DNA of 64,000 nucleotides from Collinsella aerofaciens. GTDB taxonomy: Bacteria > Actinomycetota > Coriobacteriia > Coriobacteriales > Coriobacteriaceae. The notes under the pieces are model-generated. The model was not told the origin of the DNA, searched no databases, and saw only the letters and a list, made by a program, of their open reading frames with translations. Positions 38,024 to 47,873 of the stretch are shown in pieces. The stretch is from assembly GCF_963360655.1 (NCBI RefSeq), contig NZ_OY725717.1:682001-746000 (forward strand). The letters run 5' to 3'. Positions within the stretch are counted from its first letter, which is position 1; the number at the start of each line of letters is the position of its first letter. The position numbers and the translations under genes were made by a program.

Positions 38024-38263
38024 ACCCTGTGGGCAAAAAATGGCAAATATGAGTACTGTTACCTTTTTGGTAACAGCCAAAACCGCCTCAAACGACCTCC
38101 TTGCGGCCTCTATACGCCTTCAAATTAATCAAAACGCCCGTTAGCGGGCTTCTGCGTGCCAACGTTAATGAACATATTTTTCACTTTGTCTATTATCTTG
38201 CTAGACCGATATGTTACTAGGTTAGCAACCGTACTCATATTTGGCATTTTTTGCCCACAGGGT
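38024..38263. mobile_element. 240-bp MITE-like element with 33-bp terminal inverted repeats
   Basis: Left end ACCCTGTGGGCAAAAAATGG.. (38024-38056) and right end (38231-38263) match as inverted repeats in 32 of 33 positions. The interior holds a small hairpin (GTTACC/GGTAAC) and no gene. No clear target-site duplication was seen. It lies between the exporter operon and the DAHP synthase gene and could carry that gene's promoter. Confidence 0.65.
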
Positions 38264-38329
38264 GTTTCCTGGGGAACCGACAACAGCCTTAGGGTCGCGC
38301 GCGGCGCCACTCCCTCCCCGACATCCGCC

Positions 38330-38388
38330 GACGTTTACCCAGATAAAACCTGACAAAATAAACCTGTCCCTATTTGGTAGGTTTCGGG
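38330..38388. repeat. Family 3 hairpin repeat, copy B (inverted)
   Basis: Carries CGTTTACCCAGATAAAACCT followed by a stem-loop AACCTGTCC..., the reverse of the copies at 39963 and 44546. It lies about 95 bp before the DAHP synthase start. Confidence 0.65.
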
Positions 38389-38482
38389 GTGACAAGGGCT
38401 TGCACTTTAGCGTGCGACAGCGGATAATGCCGAACACTCGACAATACGCTTATTGCTCTTTCTATAGATTGAGGAGGCCCTT

Positions 38483-39514
38483 ATGGCCATGGAATTCAAA
38501 CGCAGGCTGCCGATCCCCATGGAGATCCGCGAGGAAATGCCGCTTTCTGCCGAGCTTACCGCCAAAAAGCAGGCATTTGACGCCGAGGTCGCCAAAGTCT
38601 TTACCGGCGAGGACGCACGCAAGGTGCTCATCATCGGCCCGTGCTCTGCCGACCGCGAGGATTCGGTGCTTGAGTACATGAACCGACTGGCCAAGACCGC
38701 CGAAGAGGTCAAGGACAAGCTCATCATCATTCCGCGCGTCTACACCAATAAGCCGCGCACCAAGGGCACCGGCTACAAGGGCCTGCTGCACAACCCCAAC
38801 CCCGAGGCTCCCGACGACCTGCTCGAGGGCGTCAAGGCCATCCGCCATATGCACCTGCGCGTTATTAAGGAAACAGGCTTCTTCACCGCCGACGAGATGC
38901 TCTATCCGTCCAACTACCAGTACCTCGTTGACCTGCTGAGCTATGTGGCCGTGGGCGCACGCTCGGTCGAAAACCAGGAGCATCGCCTGGTGTCGAGCGG
39001 CATTTCGGTACCCGTCGGCATGAAGAATCCCACTGCCGGTTCCACCACCGTTATGCTCAACTCCATTTACGCCGCGCAGGCGCACCAGAGCTTCATCTTC
39101 CGCAACTGGGAGGTCGAGTGCGACGGCAATCCGCTCGCGCACGCCGTTATGCGTGGCTACATCGGTCTCGACGGTCGCACCTACCCCAACTACCACTACG
39201 AGCACCTCGAGCGCCTGGCCGAGCGCTACACCGAGCACGCCGGCTATGCCAACCCGGCAGCGGTCATCGACTGCAACCACGACAACTCGGGTAAGCGCCC
39301 GCTTGAGCAGTATCGCATTTGCAAGGAGGTGCTCGACAGCTGCCGCCGCAACGAGTCCATCTCCAAGCTGGTCAAGGGCTTTATGATCGAGTCCTACCTG
39401 GAAGACGGCAACCAGCCGGTCGACGGCGGCGTCTTTGGCAAGTCGATCACCGACCCGTGCCTGGGCTGGGAAAAGACCGACTACCTCATCCACGAGATCG
39501 CGGAGCGGATTTAG
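38483..39514 (+). CDS. aroG: 3-deoxy-7-phosphoheptulonate synthase (type I)
   Basis: 343 residues. Condenses PEP and erythrose 4-phosphate, the first step of the shikimate pathway. Motifs: IIGPCSADREDSVLEY, IIPRVYTNKPRTKGTGYKG (PRTxxGWKG-like), IDCNHDNSGKRP, and GKSITDPCLGWE at the end. It belongs to the AroF/G/H class; which amino acid inhibits it cannot be read. GAGGAGG-like site before the ATG. Monocistronic, with a family 2 element starting on the last base of its TAG stop. Confidence 0.94.
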   Translation: MAMEFKRRLPIPMEIREEMPLSAELTAKKQAFDAEVAKVFTGEDARKVLIIGPCSADREDSVLEYMNRLAKTAEEVKDKLIIIPRVYTNKPRTKGTGYKGLLHNPNPEAPDDLLEGVKAIRHMHLRVIKETGFFTADEMLYPSNYQYLVDLLSYVAVGARSVENQEHRLVSSGISVPVGMKNPTAGSTTVMLNSIYAAQAHQSFIFRNWEVECDGNPLAHAVMRGYIGLDGRTYPNYHYEHLERLAERYTEHAGYANPAAVIDCNHDNSGKRPLEQYRICKEVLDSCRRNESISKLVKGFMIESYLEDGNQPVDGGVFGKSITDPCLGWEKTDYLIHEIAERI

Positions 39515-39660
39515 TTACGCGGTTTTACCAAACCGCGTAACGGCTCGACGCTGCAAACCCGCCAGGGCGGCAATCTGCCTTTCAACTTCGGCGGCATGAT
39601 CAAAAGATCAATGCCGCCTCGTTTCAAGGCACCTTGCTCGCTCTGGCGGGCTTTCGCTGA
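39514..39660. repeat. Family 2 stop-codon-anchored element, copy a
   Basis: Hairpin GTTACGCGGTTT/AAACCGCGTAAC (39514-39541) begins on the last base of the aroG stop. A nested palindrome follows, with outer arms CCCGCCAG/CTGGCGGG (39558-39565 and 39643-39650) and inner arms GGCGGCAT/ATGCCGCC. Conserved segments shared with copy b: TCGACGCTGC-like, CAATCTG..TTCAACTTC and TCGTTTCA..CACCTTGC. Confidence 0.75.
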
Positions 39661-39685
39661 CTTTTGCTCTACCTGCGGTGTTGGC

Positions 39686-39725
39686 GGGGTAGCTAATTTA
39701 GGATGGGGCTCTTTTAGCTACCCGC
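39686..39725. repeat. GGGTAGCTAATTT inverted motif
   Basis: GGGGTAGCTAATTT (39686-39699) and TTTTAGCTACCC (39714-39725) form a short hairpin. The same motif forms the terminal repeats of the element at 47977-48113 and occurs singly at 57485-57497. Confidence 0.6.
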
Positions 39726-39728
39726 AAA

Positions 39729-39786
39729 GTAGTCGCTGGGGACGTTCTTAAATAACTAGTCGTTTAAGAACGTCCCCAGCGACTAC
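39729..39786. repeat. Perfect 24-bp-arm palindrome
   Basis: GTAGTCGCTGGGGACGTTCT.. (39729-39752) and its exact complement (39763-39786) around a 10-nt spacer. The right arm runs into the first codons of the luxR remnant. Confidence 0.8.
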
Positions 39787-39957
39787 AAGCTCTCCAACCG
39801 TGAGGCCGAGGTTTTGCGTCTGGTTGTACTGGGCAAATCGAACCAAGAGATCGCTGACGAGCTATTCCTTGCCGTGGGCACCGTCAAGACCCACATCCTC
39901 AACATCCTGGTCAAAACTGAGCAGCAAAACCGCACGACGCTCATCCTCCACTTCTGA
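39781..39957 (+). pseudogene. LuxR-type HTH gene, 3' remnant
   Basis: Fifty-eight codons encode the end of a LuxR/GerE-type DNA-binding domain: LSNREAEVLRLVVLGKSNQ, EIADELFLAVGTVKTHILN, ILVKTEQQNRTTLILHF. No start or ribosome site; the 5' part is gone and replaced by a palindrome. It ends at TGA where the related copy at 44511-44546 reads TGG and continues WER-stop, so this end carries a nonsense change. Confidence 0.75.
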
Positions 39958-40060
39958 AAGCGCTAACCTGCCAAAAAGAGACAGGTTTATTTTGGCAAGT
40001 TTTATCTGGGCAAACGCCAACCGCCGCGGGGAAGTTGTCTCCCTTCGCGGCGGTTTTTGG
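39934..40060. repeat. Left direct repeat of the LuxR/ABC cassette
   Basis: About 125 bp matching 44513-44643 in the same orientation: end of the luxR reading frame (CTCATCCTCCACTTCTG), family 3 hairpin (39963-40017) and a terminator-like stem (AACCGCCG...CGGCGGTTTTTGG). The two copies bracket 4.5 kb of accessory genes. Confidence 0.75.
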
Positions 40061-40077
40061 TTCATGATTTCATTCGC

Positions 40078-40212
40078 CTCAATCTGTAACGCGTAGAGGA
40101 CAAATCGCCGTCTTACTGTTACAGATCGAGACGAGTTATAGAGTGCGCGTCGAATAGTCTCAATCTGTAACAGGTAGAGACGTTTTTGCCAGCCAGGTGT
40201 TACAGATTGAGA
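40078..40212. repeat. Two inverted-repeat units with TCAATCTGTAAC arms
   Basis: Unit 1: CTCAATCTGTAAC (40078-40090) and GTTACAGATCGAG (40118-40130). Unit 2: TCTCAATCTGTAAC (40158-40171) and GTTACAGATTGAGA (40199-40212). About 80 bp apart, inside the left edge of the cassette. No gene. Confidence 0.7.
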
Positions 40213-40283
40213 TGAACGAAGGGGCAGCAGCGTTAAACAAGTCCGCCGCAAAGTAATTCGGAGAGATCCGATCCTAGAGTTAT

Positions 40284-40643
40284 CTACCAGGTACGATATG
40301 TGCACTGATATTTTGTCTCAAACCCGGGCATCCCGTTGCCGCGCGGGCTTAACGCTGCACCCGTATAGAGAATCGTTTGCCCCGTACGAGAATACGAAGT
40401 TTTAAATGACAGCCTCTTGTATGTCTGATCGAAGCAATCAATATTCTCGCTCGGGTGGTTTGCAGTGGAGAACGATTTGTAGGTGTCCAAGACATCCGCC
40501 GTCACAAGACGACAAGGTGCAACAGAACCTGCATCTGGTTGCGCCGACGCATAAGTGGGAATTACGGCCATCGACAGAGCGAACATAATACATGCGCACA
40601 TTGCCTTCACATAGTTCTTCGCTACATTTCGCTTCATGGTCAT
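40284..40643 (-). CDS. Small secreted protein of unknown function
   Basis: 119 residues. Signal peptide at about 1-34 (basic MTMKRN start, hydrophobic MCACIMFALSMAVIP, likely cleavage after ASA). The mature part of about 85 residues has three Cys (APCRL, IDCFD, YQCTYR) and is rich in Thr/Ser/Tyr. I do not recognise a family. It is the last gene of the cassette, 9 bp after the fused ABC gene, so it may be that transporter's cargo or an accessory such as an immunity or bacteriocin-like protein; this is inference. AT-richer than the genome average. Confidence 0.65.
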   Translation of the reverse strand: MTMKRNVAKNYVKAMCACIMFALSMAVIPTYASAQPDAGSVAPCRLVTADVLDTYKSFSTANHPSENIDCFDQTYKRLSFKTSYSRTGQTILYTGAALSPRGNGMPGFETKYQCTYRTW

Positions 40644-40652
40644 CTTCCTTTC

Positions 40653-42563
40653 CTAGTTTTTGTTATCGTTCGTCTTGAAAAGCTGCGCGTACACATTACC
40701 GATCCATTTCGAATCACCTCCCATTTCTCGGGTAACGACACGAGAGCCATCTCGTGTGAACAATACGGAAGCATCACAAAGCGATTCGAGATTTCCGATT
40801 AGATGAGAAGAGATAATGACATGCGCCCCCCTGCCCGCATCGTCTCTAAGAGCATTCGAAACGATTGCGACGTGTCTCACATCAAGTGCATTCATGGGCT
40901 CATCCAAAAGGACGACTTCGCAATAGGACATATACGCCATCGCCACATTGAGTAATTGTCTATTTCCATCAGACAGCCTAGATACGGGCGTATTCTTCAA
41001 CCCAGTCAAGTCAAAGCGATCAAGCACTTGGTCCAAAGTGCGAGGTGAATGCCAAATTCGCCTGCATCGGTCGAGATGGAAAGCGACTGTCATGTATGGA
41101 ATCAATAGAGACGGCCCATTCGGAACCAAGAAGAATTCCTTTCTCATTTCCTCACTGTCGACACATGCTTTTGCATGAAAACAGAGAGAACCTGACACGC
41201 GCACTGATGGCCCAGCGTCTCCCCAAAGAGCATTAAGTAACGTAGTCTTGCCATATCCATTTGGCGCGACAAGACCCCATATCTGGCCAGCGGGCATATC
41301 AAACTGCAATCCCTTTGCCAGCTGGTTTTTTCCAACCGTCAACACATCCAACGACAGAGAGAGCAAGCTTTTCTCGCCCAAACTATCCGGACTAATATGG
41401 TTCCAGGCCCAGCGATTCTTGCTTTTTAGGCGCGAAAACGAGATGATTCCCAACGCACAGACAACAAGCATGCCCATTACGGCAAAGAAACAGTGCAGCG
41501 CACTGGCTTCAGGAACGAGTGATACCTCAGCTCCATTGGCGTAAGAAGCGCCGCCGAGTGCAAGCGAAGAGACAGAATAGCTCGGCACCATATACGGCAG
41601 CAACGCATGCCATGGAGCATCTTTGCTCGCATAAAACGGAAGCTGGCTTATGCCCCCCACAAGAGCGACCACCATGGACGAAATGGCCCTGCTTCTGCTT
41701 CCTGCGTATACGCACACGCCCAAACAAGCAAACATCATAGACAACGCAACCTCAAAGACAGCAAATAGCCCAAGCTGAACTAACACAGTTCTTTCGACCA
41801 CGTCACCATACTGAATGAATACGACTGGGTACTCCGTCTGACCGGCACCGTTAAGCACCGTTGCCAATACAAAACAGGGAGCCAACGCCAGAACCAAAAC
41901 CGTCATCGATGCAATGCCAGAGACGAGAACGCGGCATGCATTCATCTCTAACTTTGACAACAAAGCCCGATCGTAGAACCGCTTTCCATCCCCCTCAAGC
42001 GACATATAGAGGACGAGAACCGGAACTAAAAGCCACGCTATTGCAGGAACAGCGCCGCAATAATATGCAAGAAGAATCATCCCAGGCATTTTTGTTGTTG
42101 AGCCGTACGATTCCGGATGGGGCAGCATTGCTATGGCTCGGGGAAGACGCTCTTGGGCCTCAAGCGATAGCTCCGAATCAACGCCATTCAAATAACCGAG
42201 TCGGTATTCCTTGAGCAATAGATTGTCATAATCGGCAATCGCATCGTAATACCCTCTGGAGTCTGTCTTACTTTTAAGCGCTCTATCAAGACACGCCCTT
42301 TCGTCGGCAATGATGCTGTTAAGCTCCTGTGGGGCAGTGTCATAAACGCCGTCAGAGACTTGAGAGACCAACAATGCCCTCTGCTCCTTGATGGAACCTC
42401 TGCCATATAGATAATCTGCTCCCGTTGGAACGGATAGAAAAACCGGGATGCAGAATACGAGCGCGAGCAGCGCCGTCAGCAACATAATTCCCCGGTTTCG
42501 CGCAAGAACTTCTAAATTAAGTCGTACATATGCGAGGCAATCACAAGTCTTCACGGCAAGCAC
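40653..42563 (-). CDS. ABC transporter, fused permease and ATPase
   Basis: 636 residues. N-terminal permease with a helix at about 25-45, an extracytoplasmic loop (about 50-155) and five or six more helices to about residue 390; C-terminal ATPase with Walker A APNGYGKTT, signature LSDGN (LSGGQ degenerate), Walker B VVLLDEP and H-loop ISSHL. Fusion in the order permease-ATPase is unusual for this ABC-2-like class, which normally uses separate genes. It lies between a membrane LuxR regulator and a secreted protein. Export or immunity role suspected. Confidence 0.75.
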   Translation of the reverse strand: MLAVKTCDCLAYVRLNLEVLARNRGIMLLTALLALVFCIPVFLSVPTGADYLYGRGSIKEQRALLVSQVSDGVYDTAPQELNSIIADERACLDRALKSKTDSRGYYDAIADYDNLLLKEYRLGYLNGVDSELSLEAQERLPRAIAMLPHPESYGSTTKMPGMILLAYYCGAVPAIAWLLVPVLVLYMSLEGDGKRFYDRALLSKLEMNACRVLVSGIASMTVLVLALAPCFVLATVLNGAGQTEYPVVFIQYGDVVERTVLVQLGLFAVFEVALSMMFACLGVCVYAGSRSRAISSMVVALVGGISQLPFYASKDAPWHALLPYMVPSYSVSSLALGGASYANGAEVSLVPEASALHCFFAVMGMLVVCALGIISFSRLKSKNRWAWNHISPDSLGEKSLLSLSLDVLTVGKNQLAKGLQFDMPAGQIWGLVAPNGYGKTTLLNALWGDAGPSVRVSGSLCFHAKACVDSEEMRKEFFLVPNGPSLLIPYMTVAFHLDRCRRIWHSPRTLDQVLDRFDLTGLKNTPVSRLSDGNRQLLNVAMAYMSYCEVVLLDEPMNALDVRHVAIVSNALRDDAGRGAHVIISSHLIGNLESLCDASVLFTRDGSRVVTREMGGDSKWIGNVYAQLFKTNDNKN

Positions 42564-42678
42564 CTCCGGTTCGCAACGTACGGATCGTCGGACCCGTTGT
42601 CCGGAAGTATCGCCTTCATCGTCTGAACTGTCTGTAGACGTATGGGATGGACTTGTGACCTTGTTTGTCTACAGGCTT

Positions 42679-44412
42679 CTACCTGCCATTTTCTAAAACA
42701 TCAGCTATAAGACAAAATACCTTATCTCTAAGTTCACGCTCCGAGTGAACTCCAAGCAAGGCATAGCTCTTGCTCTTAGCCTCTTTGACGGTTCCCCGAG
42801 CAACGTTAAGATGTGCGCAAATCTCGGTGGATCCACTGCCATCAAGAACGCATGCCATGATGTCAGCATAAAGTGGCGTAAAGCCAAGCTTCAAGAAAAC
42901 CTCGCGTGCGGCATCGCGTCGATTACCCGCCGGGACTGCATCTTTCGCACGCAAGGATAGCAGCGAATAAGTCAGAAGGATAAGTACGACAAGGAACGCG
43001 GTCACGCGTAAAGCAGGCAAAAGGCCGTCAACGGCCTCACCGCTCCCAACGGACTCAAAGAAAATGTACAGTCGACTTACCACATCGTGAACCCAGAACG
43101 TTGCCCCAGCACCCACAGACACCGAAGAAAGAGTAAGTTCGGGCGAAAGGCACAAATGCATTTCAGACATCCACCGTATAGCCGCATGGCAACACAGGGC
43201 CAAAAGCACTATAGCTATCGACAGGATTATCACATCATGCTCAAAGCCGAAGCATATGAGGATTTCCTCGATGCCCATTCCAGACGCATACATAAACAGG
43301 AAGCAGGCGAAGACTATCCTGCAGCTCCGATTGGACGATAAGGACCTCAGTGATTCTGAACGGTGATCATGGCCTTTTGTTGCGTCGAAATGCCACGTAT
43401 CCTTTGACAAAAGAAGTCCAGCTGTCGCCTCTGAAATGCTTTTATATCCGGTTTTAGTCAAGGCCCGCGACAAATAGGTACGGGCGGTAGACGGGGAAAT
43501 ATCCAAGGCAGAAGCAATCTCCTCGTACGTTTTTCCCTCTATCCTCATAGAGAAAACCGCGGACTCCCTTTGAGAAAAACCCAAAGTCGCAGGGATATCG
43601 GCAACTGCAGAGCGTTTTCCTCCTAATTTGGCATCCGCAGAAAAAGCGCTCGTTAAGTCGGGTAAGGATCGCATTATGGCCCTGACAAGGATGCTGCCCA
43701 AGACAGTCACCAGAAGCAGTGCGATCTCTTGATGCCCACCAAAGCTCAGGAGCACAGCACCGATGTTTATATTGCGCGAAAACAAACAATCCAAATCAAG
43801 AACAACGGCAGCATTACCAAACGCAAGAGGTTCGACGAGCGAGGCAGCAACCCCCATCTCGGCGTTAACGGAAAGGAAAGAACCGACGGACTCCATCAAC
43901 GGGGCGAGAAGAAACTGAAGGCCAACAAGCAAAGCAATCAAGAGTACAACGGGGCTGTAAAGGGCGAGCTCAGGATACCCATGGAGAACAGGGCCATCGA
44001 CTACATGTTTCCCCGTTGATCCCGCACGCATGTTTGCGAATTCACCGCCAAGCGCCCAAGAACAGCAAGCGACAAGCAAGGGGGCTAGCAACAACAAAAT
44101 GAACGCGAGCGCCGAAACCACACCATGAAATTGATGAAACACATTAAGAGATACCGTGAACATCGCAAGAAGTGCAATATCTACGAGCATAAGTCCAAAA
44201 AGCCGTTTGGAAATACCCGGTCTCACGGGGCGAGAGATGAGACCCACACAGAAGCCCGAAAGCAGATGCAGGCCGATAAGAACGGTGCCAGAAAGGCCCG
44301 CATAAATACTTGGCGCCATACAATACAGACCAGCCGCCCCTATAAACAACATAATTGAATGCCAGAGGAACGAGCGCTTCACGTTTTGTAGATTAGCCGC
44401 CTCGATTGCCAT
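42679..44412 (-). CDS. Membrane LuxR regulator with two HTH domains
   Basis: About 577 residues from MAIEAANLQ (ATG 44410-44412, AGGAG upstream). Six or seven membrane segments (about 15-245), a LuxR/GerE HTH at about 277-337 (LGFSQRESAVFSMRIEGKTY, EEIASALDISPSTARTYLSR), four more membrane segments (about 365-490), and a second, more divergent HTH at about 509-575 (TEICAHLNVARGTVKEAKSK). Coriobacteria have many membrane LuxR proteins with one C-terminal HTH; an internal one as well is unusual. Likely controls the ABC/secreted-protein genes downstream. Confidence 0.75.
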   Translation of the reverse strand: MAIEAANLQNVKRSFLWHSIMLFIGAAGLYCMAPSIYAGLSGTVLIGLHLLSGFCVGLISRPVRPGISKRLFGLMLVDIALLAMFTVSLNVFHQFHGVVSALAFILLLLAPLLVACCSWALGGEFANMRAGSTGKHVVDGPVLHGYPELALYSPVVLLIALLVGLQFLLAPLMESVGSFLSVNAEMGVAASLVEPLAFGNAAVVLDLDCLFSRNINIGAVLLSFGGHQEIALLLVTVLGSILVRAIMRSLPDLTSAFSADAKLGGKRSAVADIPATLGFSQRESAVFSMRIEGKTYEEIASALDISPSTARTYLSRALTKTGYKSISEATAGLLLSKDTWHFDATKGHDHRSESLRSLSSNRSCRIVFACFLFMYASGMGIEEILICFGFEHDVIILSIAIVLLALCCHAAIRWMSEMHLCLSPELTLSSVSVGAGATFWVHDVVSRLYIFFESVGSGEAVDGLLPALRVTAFLVVLILLTYSLLSLRAKDAVPAGNRRDAAREVFLKLGFTPLYADIMACVLDGSGSTEICAHLNVARGTVKEAKSKSYALLGVHSERELRDKVFCLIADVLENGR

Positions 44413-44512
44413 AAATTCAAAGCTCCTAGATAGCATTTTGGCTATTTTAACATCGTCCCCAGCGTTAAAAAACTGTTACCCGAATTAATCAATATGCCCC
44501 CTCCGCTAAAAG

Positions 44513-44643
44513 GCACCACGCTCATCCTCCACTTCTGGGAGCGCTAACCTGCCAAAAAGGAACAGGTTTATTTTGGCAGGTTTTATCTGGGCAAACGTCC
44601 AAACCGCCGTAAGGGAGTTGCCTTCCCTCGCAGCGGTCTTCTA
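44513..44643. repeat. Right direct repeat of the LuxR/ABC cassette
   Basis: Matches 39934-40060: CTCATCCTCCACTTCTGGGA (encodes the luxR C-terminal TTLILHFWER-stop), family 3 hairpin AACCTGCCAAAA...TTTTGGCAGGTT (44546-44583) with its TATCTGGGCAAACG tail, and the weaker GCCGTAAGGG...GCAGCGGT stem. Confidence 0.75.
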
Positions 44644-44653
44644 GCAGAAAAAC

Positions 44654-44774
44654 CAAGTGAGTAGGCTTTTTGCAGAAGGCCGAGCACGCCCTAAAACGCC
44701 ACAGCTCTGACCTGCAGTTTTATAGATCATTTGTCGCGATGTGCTCGGCAGGTTCAAAAAAGTCTACTCACTTG
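44654..44774. mobile_element. 121-bp element with terminal inverted repeats
   Basis: CAAGTGAGTAGGCTTTTT and AAAAAAGTCTACTCACTTG form near-perfect ends; an inner stem GCCGAGCAC/GTGCTCGGC lies within. Non-coding, MITE-like or a structured RNA. Confidence 0.6.
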
Positions 44775-44875: not shown

Positions 44876-47098
44876 TTACTCGCTGTAGCGGGTGGCAATG
44901 GCGGCTCGCACCATGCCGGTGCTCATGAGGTAGGTCACCAGGAAGTAGCCACCGTATGCTGCCAGGAAGATTGCACAGGTGAGGCCCACGGTGCCGCCGA
45001 TGCTCATATTTCCGAAAATGCTCACCAGCTCGATGATCACCTTAAGTGCCACAAAGGAGTGCGCCAGGCCCACTGCCAGCGGGAACAGGAAGAATACCGC
45101 TTGCTGCGCCATCACCGAATGACGAATCTGGCGGTCCTCACAGCCGATCTGTGCCAGCACACGATAGCTGCGGCTGCCGTCGGCCACGTTGGAGAGTTGC
45201 TGGATCGACAGAATCGCCGCGCATGCAACGACCAATACAAAGCCGATGTAGATGGCTAGGTAGCTAATAAGACCGTTCATTTGCGCTGCTTGCGTGTACA
45301 TCTCGGAGCGTGTGATGAAGGTTCCCCACGACCCCGACTCCTTGCCGTCAACGAGCAGATTGTCGAGCACAGTGTATTTAATGCTCTCGTCTGCCTCGGT
45401 CGTATCCATCCCCTGTTTGTAGTTAACGAGCAGGCTACTGGAATACGGCTGCAGATTAAGTTGGGACAACAGCTCGTCGGCAACGACGACGGTACCCGGA
45501 TTACTGCCCATCGCCGAGTTGGCGATGGCCGCCGTATCTTCGTCCGACTTATCGGTTGCGGGCTTGAGCGTATGCCCGCCCAAGGTAAGGGCATGGCCGC
45601 CAGCCATATACTTGGTGTACAGGTCGACCAGCTCGCCGCCCATATCACATGTGAGCAGATACTGGTCGTGACCGATGTGCACCGGCTCCTCGCCCATCAT
45701 CTGACGCAGTTTGTTGTACTGGCTCGCCGGCGTCACAAACAGACCCATCGTATCGGCATTGCTACCCCCGAACGCCTTGGGGAGCTTTTCGCCCATGGTC
45801 TTGCACATCTCACTTGGAGTCACCGATGGATCCGAACCGCCAAACGGGTAACTCAGATACGAATCGATCTGCACATGCTCACCGGCAACATCGGCAATAT
45901 TGACCTTCTTGCCGGTCTCGTCGTTGTTGTCCGCCGACTTGCCCTTACGATCGCCGTGCCATGGATCGCCGTGCCATGCGGAGTACAAATCGACCGTACT
46001 ATCGGCCAGCACCATGCGATCGGCTTCAGACGGATTGATGTACTCTTTGTAGTAGTCGAGCGTATCGGGCGTGTAATAGACATACGTCTGTGACACGTCA
46101 ACAGGGTTATAGCGCTCCAGGTTTTCGTTCATCACATTGGCAATCGACATACCGCACGTCACCGAGGTGATGGCCAAAAACAGGAGCATCGCGATGACGC
46201 CCATCGAAAAGCACACCGTGTTGACCTTGGCCGCAAGCTGGCGCACGGTAAACATGTTGAGGCCGCGCCAATACACGCCGCGCAGGCTCTGCAGCAGCTT
46301 GATGAGCATGCCCGAGAGTCCCCAGAACAGGGCAAAGGTGCCCACGGTAACCATAGCGGTCGTAATACCAAACTGGTTCATGGCCTCTTGCAGCTTGCTG
46401 TCCGTCGCGGTTAGCGGGAACCCATCACGTAGCAGACGGTAATAGGCCACGCCCACCAGCAACACGCCCACGGTAAAGATGGCAATCGCGATCCAGGGGT
46501 TGCGTGTCTTGATGCTCTCGTTGCGACGCTCGGCACCCATAAGCTCGATGAGTTTGGTACGACGTACGGCGCGAAGGTTCAGCAGTAGCGTGAGCACAAA
46601 CATTACGAGCATGCAGGCAAGGGTCAGATTGAACGCATGCACCGAGAAAAAGAAGTGGAAATTGGCGATCTGTGTCTTAAAGAGCGAGGCCGTAAAGAAC
46701 GTCATGAGCTGGGAGAGTCCCACACCCAGCACAATGCCGGCGACAAAGGCCACGACCGATACTATCACGGTCTCGAGCGCCATGATCGTGGCGACGCGCC
46801 CACGCCCCATGCCGAGCACCTGGTACAGGCCAAACTCCTTCTTGCGGCGTTTCATGATGAAGTTATTGGCATACACCATCAAAAAGGCCATGACACCGGC
46901 CAAAAAGTACGTCAGGTCGCCGAGTATGCTGCCCATAACCTGCGCCAAGCCCTCTTCATCGATGCCGGCGATGTCGACCTGCATCGAGATGGTGTTAAAG
47001 GCATAGAAGACCGTGACGCCCAGGGTGAGCGTCAAAAGGTAGACGAGGTAGTCGCGGCCGGCGCGGCGGACGTTACCCCAAGCGAGTTTACAGAGCAT
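44876..47098 (-). CDS. ABC transporter permease, BceB-like
   Basis: About 740 residues from [20 protein letters not shown]. FtsX block of helices at about 15-300, then a large extracytoplasmic domain (about 330-590), then three C-terminal helices. This ten-helix layout with one big external loop is that of BceB-type permeases that sense or remove peptide antibiotics such as bacitracin. No two-component system is adjacent, although BceAB pumps often have one. It overlaps the ATPase gene end by 11 bp. Confidence 0.85.
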   Translation of the reverse strand: MLCKLAWGNVRRAGRDYLVYLLTLTLGVTVFYAFNTISMQVDIAGIDEEGLAQVMGSILGDLTYFLAGVMAFLMVYANNFIMKRRKKEFGLYQVLGMGRGRVATIMALETVIVSVVAFVAGIVLGVGLSQLMTFFTASLFKTQIANFHFFFSVHAFNLTLACMLVMFVLTLLLNLRAVRRTKLIELMGAERRNESIKTRNPWIAIAIFTVGVLLVGVAYYRLLRDGFPLTATDSKLQEAMNQFGITTAMVTVGTFALFWGLSGMLIKLLQSLRGVYWRGLNMFTVRQLAAKVNTVCFSMGVIAMLLFLAITSVTCGMSIANVMNENLERYNPVDVSQTYVYYTPDTLDYYKEYINPSEADRMVLADSTVDLYSAWHGDPWHGDRKGKSADNNDETGKKVNIADVAGEHVQIDSYLSYPFGGSDPSVTPSEMCKTMGEKLPKAFGGSNADTMGLFVTPASQYNKLRQMMGEEPVHIGHDQYLLTCDMGGELVDLYTKYMAGGHALTLGGHTLKPATDKSDEDTAAIANSAMGSNPGTVVVADELLSQLNLQPYSSSLLVNYKQGMDTTEADESIKYTVLDNLLVDGKESGSWGTFITRSEMYTQAAQMNGLISYLAIYIGFVLVVACAAILSIQQLSNVADGSRSYRVLAQIGCEDRQIRHSVMAQQAVFFLFPLAVGLAHSFVALKVIIELVSIFGNMSIGGTVGLTCAIFLAAYGGYFLVTYLMSTGMVRAAIATRYSE

Positions 47099-47873
47099 CG
47101 GAGCCCTCACCGCCCATCATGGCAACGACCTCCATAATGCGGTCGAAGAACTCTCGGCGGTCGGTGTCGCCGCGGCGCAGCTCGGTGAAGATCTTGCCGT
47201 CGCGGATAAACAGCACGCGGCTCGTGTAGCTGGCAGCAAAGCTGTCGTGCGTGACCATGAGCACGGTGGCGCGCAGGCGGCGGTTAAGGGCCTCCAGGCT
47301 CTCGAGCAGCAGACGGGCGCTCTTGGAATCGAGGGCGCCGGTGGGCTCATCGGCCATAATCATGGTGGGGTCGGTGACGAGCGCGCGACAGGCGGCAACG
47401 CGCTGCTGCTGGCCGCCGGACATCTGGTAGGGATATTTGTCGAGCACCTGGCTCACGGACAGGCGCGCTGCCACATCCTGCACGCGAGTCGAAATCTCTG
47501 CCGAGTTTGTGCGGGCGATAGTGAGCGGCAGGGCGATGTTCTCGCGTGCCGTGAGCGTATCGAGCAGGTTAGAATCCTGGAAGATAAAGCCGAGCTCCTC
47601 GCGGCGGAACTGCGAAAGCTTAGCCTGCTTCATGCGTGTTACGTCCTGCCCGTTGATGCGGATCGTGCCACTTGTGGCGCTATCGATGGTCGACACGCAG
47701 TTGAGCAACGTTGACTTGCCCGAGCCCGAAGCACCCATGATGCCAACGAATTCGCCGCGGTTGACGGTAAAGCTGACGTCGTTGAGCGCACGGGTCACGT
47801 TGCCCAGCGCTCCGTATACCTTTTCGAGATGCGCGACCTCCAGTACCGGGGTCGCCATGTGCGTGGTTTGCAT
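47088..47873 (-). CDS. ABC transporter ATP-binding protein, BceA-like
   Basis: 261 residues. Walker [11 protein letters not shown]-loop [11 protein letters not shown], signature MSGGQQQR, Walker [13 protein letters not shown] and H-loop [13 protein letters not shown] and the following [13 protein letters not shown] are typical of BceA. The ATG at 47873 has AAAGGA 7 bp upstream; MATPVLEV at 47858 is an alternative. First gene of the two-gene operon. Confidence 0.92.

Follow-up and report, generated by a model that had tools for sequence, protein, structure and literature searches.

What does a small AT-rich group of genes do, and how did it come to lie between two copies of the 3' end of a luxR gene? 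We have addressed this question for a locus of Collinsella aerofaciens, working within a window, by which we mean the whole 64,000-nucleotide stretch of DNA that was analysed (G000:C6:682001-746000, in a genome of 2.3 Mb). We somewhat favour reading the locus as a horizontally moved, self-regulated secreted-peptide/ABC module at a luxR 3' end, most likely a bacteriocin/immunity system. The strongest of our claims are that the module was inserted, that it belongs to a family of modules and that its regulator is paired with an operator.

An earlier note on this DNA had described three genes between the repeats, for a double-HTH LuxR, a fused ABC protein and a small protein, and open reading frames (ORFs) together with Pfam searches recovered all three as described. 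With the inverted repeat at the left cassette edge, they are:

40069-40220, no strand: imperfect inverted repeat with 64-nt arms, at the left cassette edge
40284-40643, minus strand: 119-aa small protein, with no family in Pfam; its own family is profiled in alignment A2
40653-42563, minus strand: 636-aa fused ABC permease-ATPase (ABC_tran, E 4.5e-20), with Walker A, signature, Walker B and H-loop
42679-44436, minus strand: 585-aa membrane LuxR in the order TM-HTH-TM-HTH, with two GerE stretches and ~10 hydrophobic segments

No integrase or recombinase was found among the three cassette proteins. The cassette had also been called AT-richer than its flanks, and a check of GC and codon bias bears this out, its genes combining low GC (0.49-0.50 against 0.594 +/- 0.035 in the 42 other ORFs of the window), low GC3 (0.51-0.55 against 0.72 +/- 0.09 in the same 42) and atypical codon use (codon-bias values of 0.55-0.61 against 0.349 +/- 0.103, again in those 42).

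The surrounding slot is bounded by an aroF-type and an ftsX-type gene and holds several repeats:

38338-38383, minus strand: inverted copy of the hairpin element (89% to the hairpin), upstream (5') of aroF and inside the interval of the aroF inversion in relatives
38483-39514, plus strand: DAHP synthase (aroF-type), left anchor; Pfam DAHP_synth_1, 5.9e-42; in 37 of 43 genus genomes
39729-39786, no strand: near-perfect palindrome with 29-nt arms, abutting the luxR relic
39781-39957, plus strand: luxR relic, HTH domain only (GerE, E 2.6e-17; alignment to the complete luxR of eight relatives)
39924-40062, plus strand: left direct repeat, comprising luxR 3' end, hairpin and terminator
about 39965-40012 (to ~40020), no strand: dispersed hairpin element ('family 3'), with 35 genome matches
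44505-44640, plus strand: right direct repeat, comprising the last luxR codons, hairpin and terminator, and running on into the resident right flank
44654-44774, no strand: imperfect inverted repeat with 34-nt arms in the right flank, recurring inside the islands of five relatives
44876-47110, minus strand: FtsX-type ABC permease, right anchor; Pfam FtsX, 3.4e-16; matched in 43 of 43 genus genomes

The proposal that the luxR end, hairpin and terminator form a direct repeat around the cassette is confirmed on alignment. The two copies (39924-40062 and 44505-44640) share 85% identity over 139 nt (E 4.5e-37), including 93 ungapped nucleotides at 90% identity (39924-40016 and 44505-44597), and a genome-wide search gave full-length matches at these two places only. 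The hairpin within them, AACCTGCCAAAAAGGGACAGGTTTATTTTGGCAGGTTTTATCTGGGCAAACG, occurs at 39965-40012 of the window and at about 34 other places in the genome, often directly 3' of a gene; since this part is dispersed, the sequence peculiar to the repeat pair is limited to the luxR-coding tail and the terminator. An Rfam search of the hairpins at a permissive threshold gave chance microRNA matches only and no Rfam family. Extended homology at one further locus (L012, C1:1237816) was considered as another luxR tail and rejected, as there is no LuxR reading frame there.

The left luxR end does read TGA at the position where the right copy reads TGG, as the earlier note had it; the relatives also read TGG, so that three residues are lost from the relic, which starts within the palindrome 39729-39786. 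The core of this palindrome, CGTCCCCAGCG, occurs once more in the window, at 44454-44464, just upstream of the membrane LuxR near the right repeat, and is maybe a trace of the same palindrome element.

Comparison across genomes, suggested earlier as a search for a site with one empty repeat, found such sites in other species of the genus. In eight congeners (G025, G003, G034, G018, G002, G004, G020 and G011) there is one copy of the luxR 3' end, hairpin and terminator, continuous with the right flank and ftsX, and the luxR is complete, with a reading frame of 321-326 aa (243 aa in G025). This complete luxR closes an agmatine-type island, up to 18 kb long; judged by sequence motifs, its ORFs would encode an agmatine deiminase, an antiporter and a carbamoyltransferase. 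Within five islands (L115, L116, L117, L119 and L125) the unit of hairpin, terminator and right flank occurs a second time. The genes aroF and ftsX are 0.4-0.8 kb apart in G005, G008, G031 and G023; five species have 3.6-4.7 kb between them, and others 13-18 kb. The palindrome is at the deletion junction in G005, where it is fused directly to 44613, and a variant of it is found in G008. In four species (G030, G018, G033 and G034; loci L205, L202, L203 and L204, compared with 38262-39786 of the window) aroF is inverted relative to its neighbours, one junction falling within 38262-38398, the interval of the inverted hairpin copy, and the second beside the palindrome or the hairpin. The aroF-ftsX slot is a repeat-rich rearrangement hot spot, and it is natural to infer that the repeats drive the rearrangement.

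Set against these relatives, the alignments show that in the window the island is gone, luxR is reduced to an HTH relic and the module stands between two copies of the luxR tail. The claim that the module was inserted stands, on two grounds: its 585-aa regulator has no ortholog in 42 congeners and none elsewhere among 65 family genomes, and relatives carry a single repeat with a complete luxR. The locus thus has direct repeats of a gene end here and a single copy in empty sites, as an integrative element does. We envisage that the three-gene accessory module would have been inserted at the 3' end of the luxR that closes the agmatine-type island, by homologous recombination through the luxR tail, hairpin and terminator with DNA from another lineage, and that the agmatine-type island would have been deleted separately. 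Repeat-mediated change at the site, also claimed earlier, finds support in the aroF inversions and the variable contents of the slot; the exact route to the direct repeat is the part of that claim that we can only infer.

The two tails agree at 35 of 41 positions, which is the divergence seen between orthologs of different species, and the direct repeat is therefore not a fresh duplication of its target. The left tail matches relatives at 36-38 of 41 positions and the right tail at 33-36, and the right terminator is mostly closer to the relatives than the left one; this pattern would be expected if both copies were hybrids of resident and incoming DNA, formed by homologous recombination at the tail, and as it consists of differences of 2-4 nt in related sequences it is weak evidence on the recombination route. 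The same 35 of 41 would also suit a history in which the site once held two luxR paralogs in tandem, the second of which lost its body to the cassette; the repeat would then not record insertion at a single gene end. No tandem pair of this luxR is present at the site in any relative examined, and we regard such a history as unlikely. An assembly artefact at the repeats, which a repeat-rich region might invite, is extremely improbable for a site inside a 900-kb contig of a genome that is 99.94% complete, with ~130-nt repeats whose 85% identity makes them easily resolved and a module found again in other genomes.

What the inserted genes encode bears on their function. The 119-aa protein has a basic/hydrophobic N-terminal segment and a single N-terminal hydrophobic stretch, followed by a predicted signal-peptidase-like site (ASA|Q), as expected of Sec-type export. 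It had been described as a secreted three-Cys protein; three Cys do follow the predicted signal, but they are not conserved across the 24 family members of alignment A2, and we have rejected them as a family-defining feature. The features that A2 does show are the signal peptide, V-DTY, TYK-L-Y and an aromatic C-terminus such as YxCNYRxW. A database search of the protein, also suggested earlier, found no family: against Pfam and NCBIfam at E up to 10 there were two chance-level matches to bleomycin-binding protein only, and four of its relatives matched no bacteriocin model in the same two collections at the same limit. A single-sequence structure model had low confidence (mean pLDDT 38.6), and a search of solved structures gave no relative.

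Relatives of the small protein occur in many Coriobacteriales, with none outside the order among 296 sampled genomes of the phylum and none in a plasmid search. Some fifteen single copies have a fused or split ABC gene within tens of bases, and at L192, L195, L196 and L200 two different small proteins form tandem pairs without a nearby ABC gene; many members have no adjacent regulator. Contig C7 of the window genome holds three further members, namely one beside a fused ABC gene (L152 6747-7100), an arrangement that many species of the genus share, and two different small proteins in tandem without ABC (L200 7830-8228 and 8207-8668).

A search of the class with the ABC protein led to G013, in which a two-HTH LuxR, a small protein and a 633-aa ABC protein stand together, and where the small protein is conserved with that of the window at about 55% and the ABC protein at 35%. 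Scans of the genome collection with the ABC or the LuxR protein as single query gave no relatives; as such scans require exact peptide words, this negative is weak. The G013 small-protein gene (L143 5519-5890, that is G013:C14:20521-20892, minus strand), which encodes the closest relative of the window protein, has TGA at the position of window Cys44 (TGT). Selenocysteine was considered at this codon and put aside, tRNA-Sec having reached the cut-off in G000 only and not in G013, so that a nonsense mutation is the simpler and probable explanation; with a stop codon in the small protein of this nearest module, the peptide may be dispensable there.

Two-HTH LuxR genes are found at four small-protein loci (the window, G013, G495 and G076), and OmpR-type two-component genes lie beside three. 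The comparison of loci shows, at the level of gene order and predicted products, that the system recurs in Coriobacteriales: the gene of a small secreted protein of the Sec type adjoins that of an ABC transporter, and often a membrane LuxR with two HTHs, or else a two-component system, is encoded alongside.

The 585-aa regulator is a LuxR protein by its two GerE stretches (E 3.9e-16), arranged as ~8 hydrophobic segments, an HTH (287-338), two more segments and a second HTH at the C-terminus. As described in an excerpt of PMC9734109, the Coriobacteriia membrane LuxR proteins DadR, HcdR and CadR have 10-12 N-terminal TM helices and one C-terminal HTH. The 585-aa protein departs from this layout and represents a variant architecture, a two-HTH form that we did not find described in the same excerpt. 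The protein resembles this class in joining a membrane region to a GerE HTH, in its place beside presumed target genes and in belonging to a type abundant in Coriobacteriia; it differs in the order TM-HTH-TM-HTH and in its neighbours, an ABC/secreted-peptide operon rather than metabolic enzymes.

Self-regulation, which the earlier note had thought plausible, is supported by a conserved candidate operator:

42629-42673, minus strand: candidate operator TGTAGAC-N27-GTCTACAGACA, upstream of the ABC gene

In relaxed form the dyad occurs once in the window, against an expectation of 0.01. Inspection of upstream regions placed the same dyad before the ABC genes of G013 and G495; it is absent from those of G058, G528, G006 and G002, beside whose modules no two-HTH LuxR was found, and also at G076, where a two-HTH LuxR is present in another arrangement. 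Across 387 genomes of the order the exact pattern, TGTAGAC-N27/29-GTCTACAGACA, gave four matches in three genomes (the window, G495 and twice in G013), all directly upstream of ABC operons at two-HTH LuxR loci, and the reversed control pattern gave zero. The fourth match, not known before the search, lies in G013 between a 781-aa two-HTH LuxR and a five-gene ABC operon. All four sites have a spacer of 27 or 29, and in all four an xAxxxT motif (GATACT, GACGCT, TAGCGT, CATGGT) stands 17 bp past the CAGACA of the right half; on our reading of these four sequences the right half-site may therefore hold a -35 region, as in LuxR-type activation.

Two further loci touch on this arrangement. The second two-HTH LuxR of G013:C14 (L218 757-7152) is followed by the operator and the five-gene ABC operon, in which no small protein was recognised. 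In G014 (L145) a two-HTH LuxR and ABC genes have a similar layout, the operator being absent.

On the reading that we favour, the membrane LuxR would sense an envelope or peptide signal, bind the dyad and switch on the ABC-peptide operon; the peptide would leave by the Sec route and act on competitors, and the ABC transporter would clear it, or similar peptides, from the producer membrane. Gene layout, patchy occurrence and the parallel with bacteriocins exported by the Sec route point, as the most likely reading, to an antimicrobial role of the small protein, with the ABC protein as its immunity. Among such bacteriocins, those of the lactococcin 972 type are class IId, with a 91-aa Sec-dependent precursor (PMC7248182); the window protein is likewise small, predicted to be Sec-exported, of similar length and encoded in a tight operon, and differs in having no Pfam or NCBIfam bacteriocin match and a different regulator. 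TIGR03740, the model for the LanFEG transporters of lantibiotic self-protection, is the top or second ATPase match for two transporters of related modules, with scores of 60.9 to 95 bits against a cut-off of 309.75, and the ABC proteins fall below the cut-off of every named immunity subfamily. They also differ from LanFEG/TIGR03740 in the fusion of permease to ATPase, with no lanthipeptide enzyme recognised nearby.

Transporters of the BceAB or LanFEG type expel envelope-acting peptides or antibiotics, and the same could hold here: the ABC protein would remove foreign compounds of this kind, the LuxR would sense the threat and the small protein would be a decoy, sensor or accessory rather than a toxin. 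Regulator/ABC pairs do occur without a small protein, as with the second LuxR and operator of G013 and in G014. Two-component systems flank other copies, as they do in peptide-detoxification modules, which couple a BceAB-like ABC transporter to a two-component system, for example YsaDCB/TCS-G (PMC7438565). The modules share with these the coupling of ABC to a membrane-signal regulator, by OmpR-type two-component genes at the three loci, and differ in the fused transporter, the co-encoded secreted protein and, in four cases, the two-HTH membrane LuxR. Against detoxification stand the better conservation of the small protein than of the ABC protein between the window and G013 and the paired small-protein genes without a nearby ABC gene, and we consider it somewhat unlikely. 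Peptide signalling, with the small protein as autoinducer, the ABC protein helping export or retrieval and the membrane LuxR reading the signal, would account for regulator, operator, transporter and secreted protein forming one unit. It is quite improbable, however, as the mature region, of ~80 residues and with aromatic positions conserved, would make a long pheromone and many family members have no neighbouring regulator.

We give about even chances to a wider proposal, namely that these modules make up an undescribed, apparently Coriobacteriales-restricted class of secreted-peptide systems. Each would combine a small Sec-type protein, or two of them, with its own ABC transporter and with a membrane regulator that carries two HTH domains on a single polypeptide and acts on a wide dyad (half-sites 34-36 bp apart), and the whole would move between species as a cassette. 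To our knowledge, little is known of competition among gut Coriobacteriales, and the inducers and operators of the transmembrane LuxR class are mostly unknown. Through this locus an orphan family of secreted proteins is tied to a transporter, to a regulator and to a candidate binding site of exact sequence, and the aroF-ftsX slot offers an example of the reshaping of accessory slots in the genus by dispersed hairpins and repeats of gene ends. A membrane LuxR with two HTHs would widen the known transmembrane LuxR class, and is a case in which a single membrane protein could hold both operator halves.
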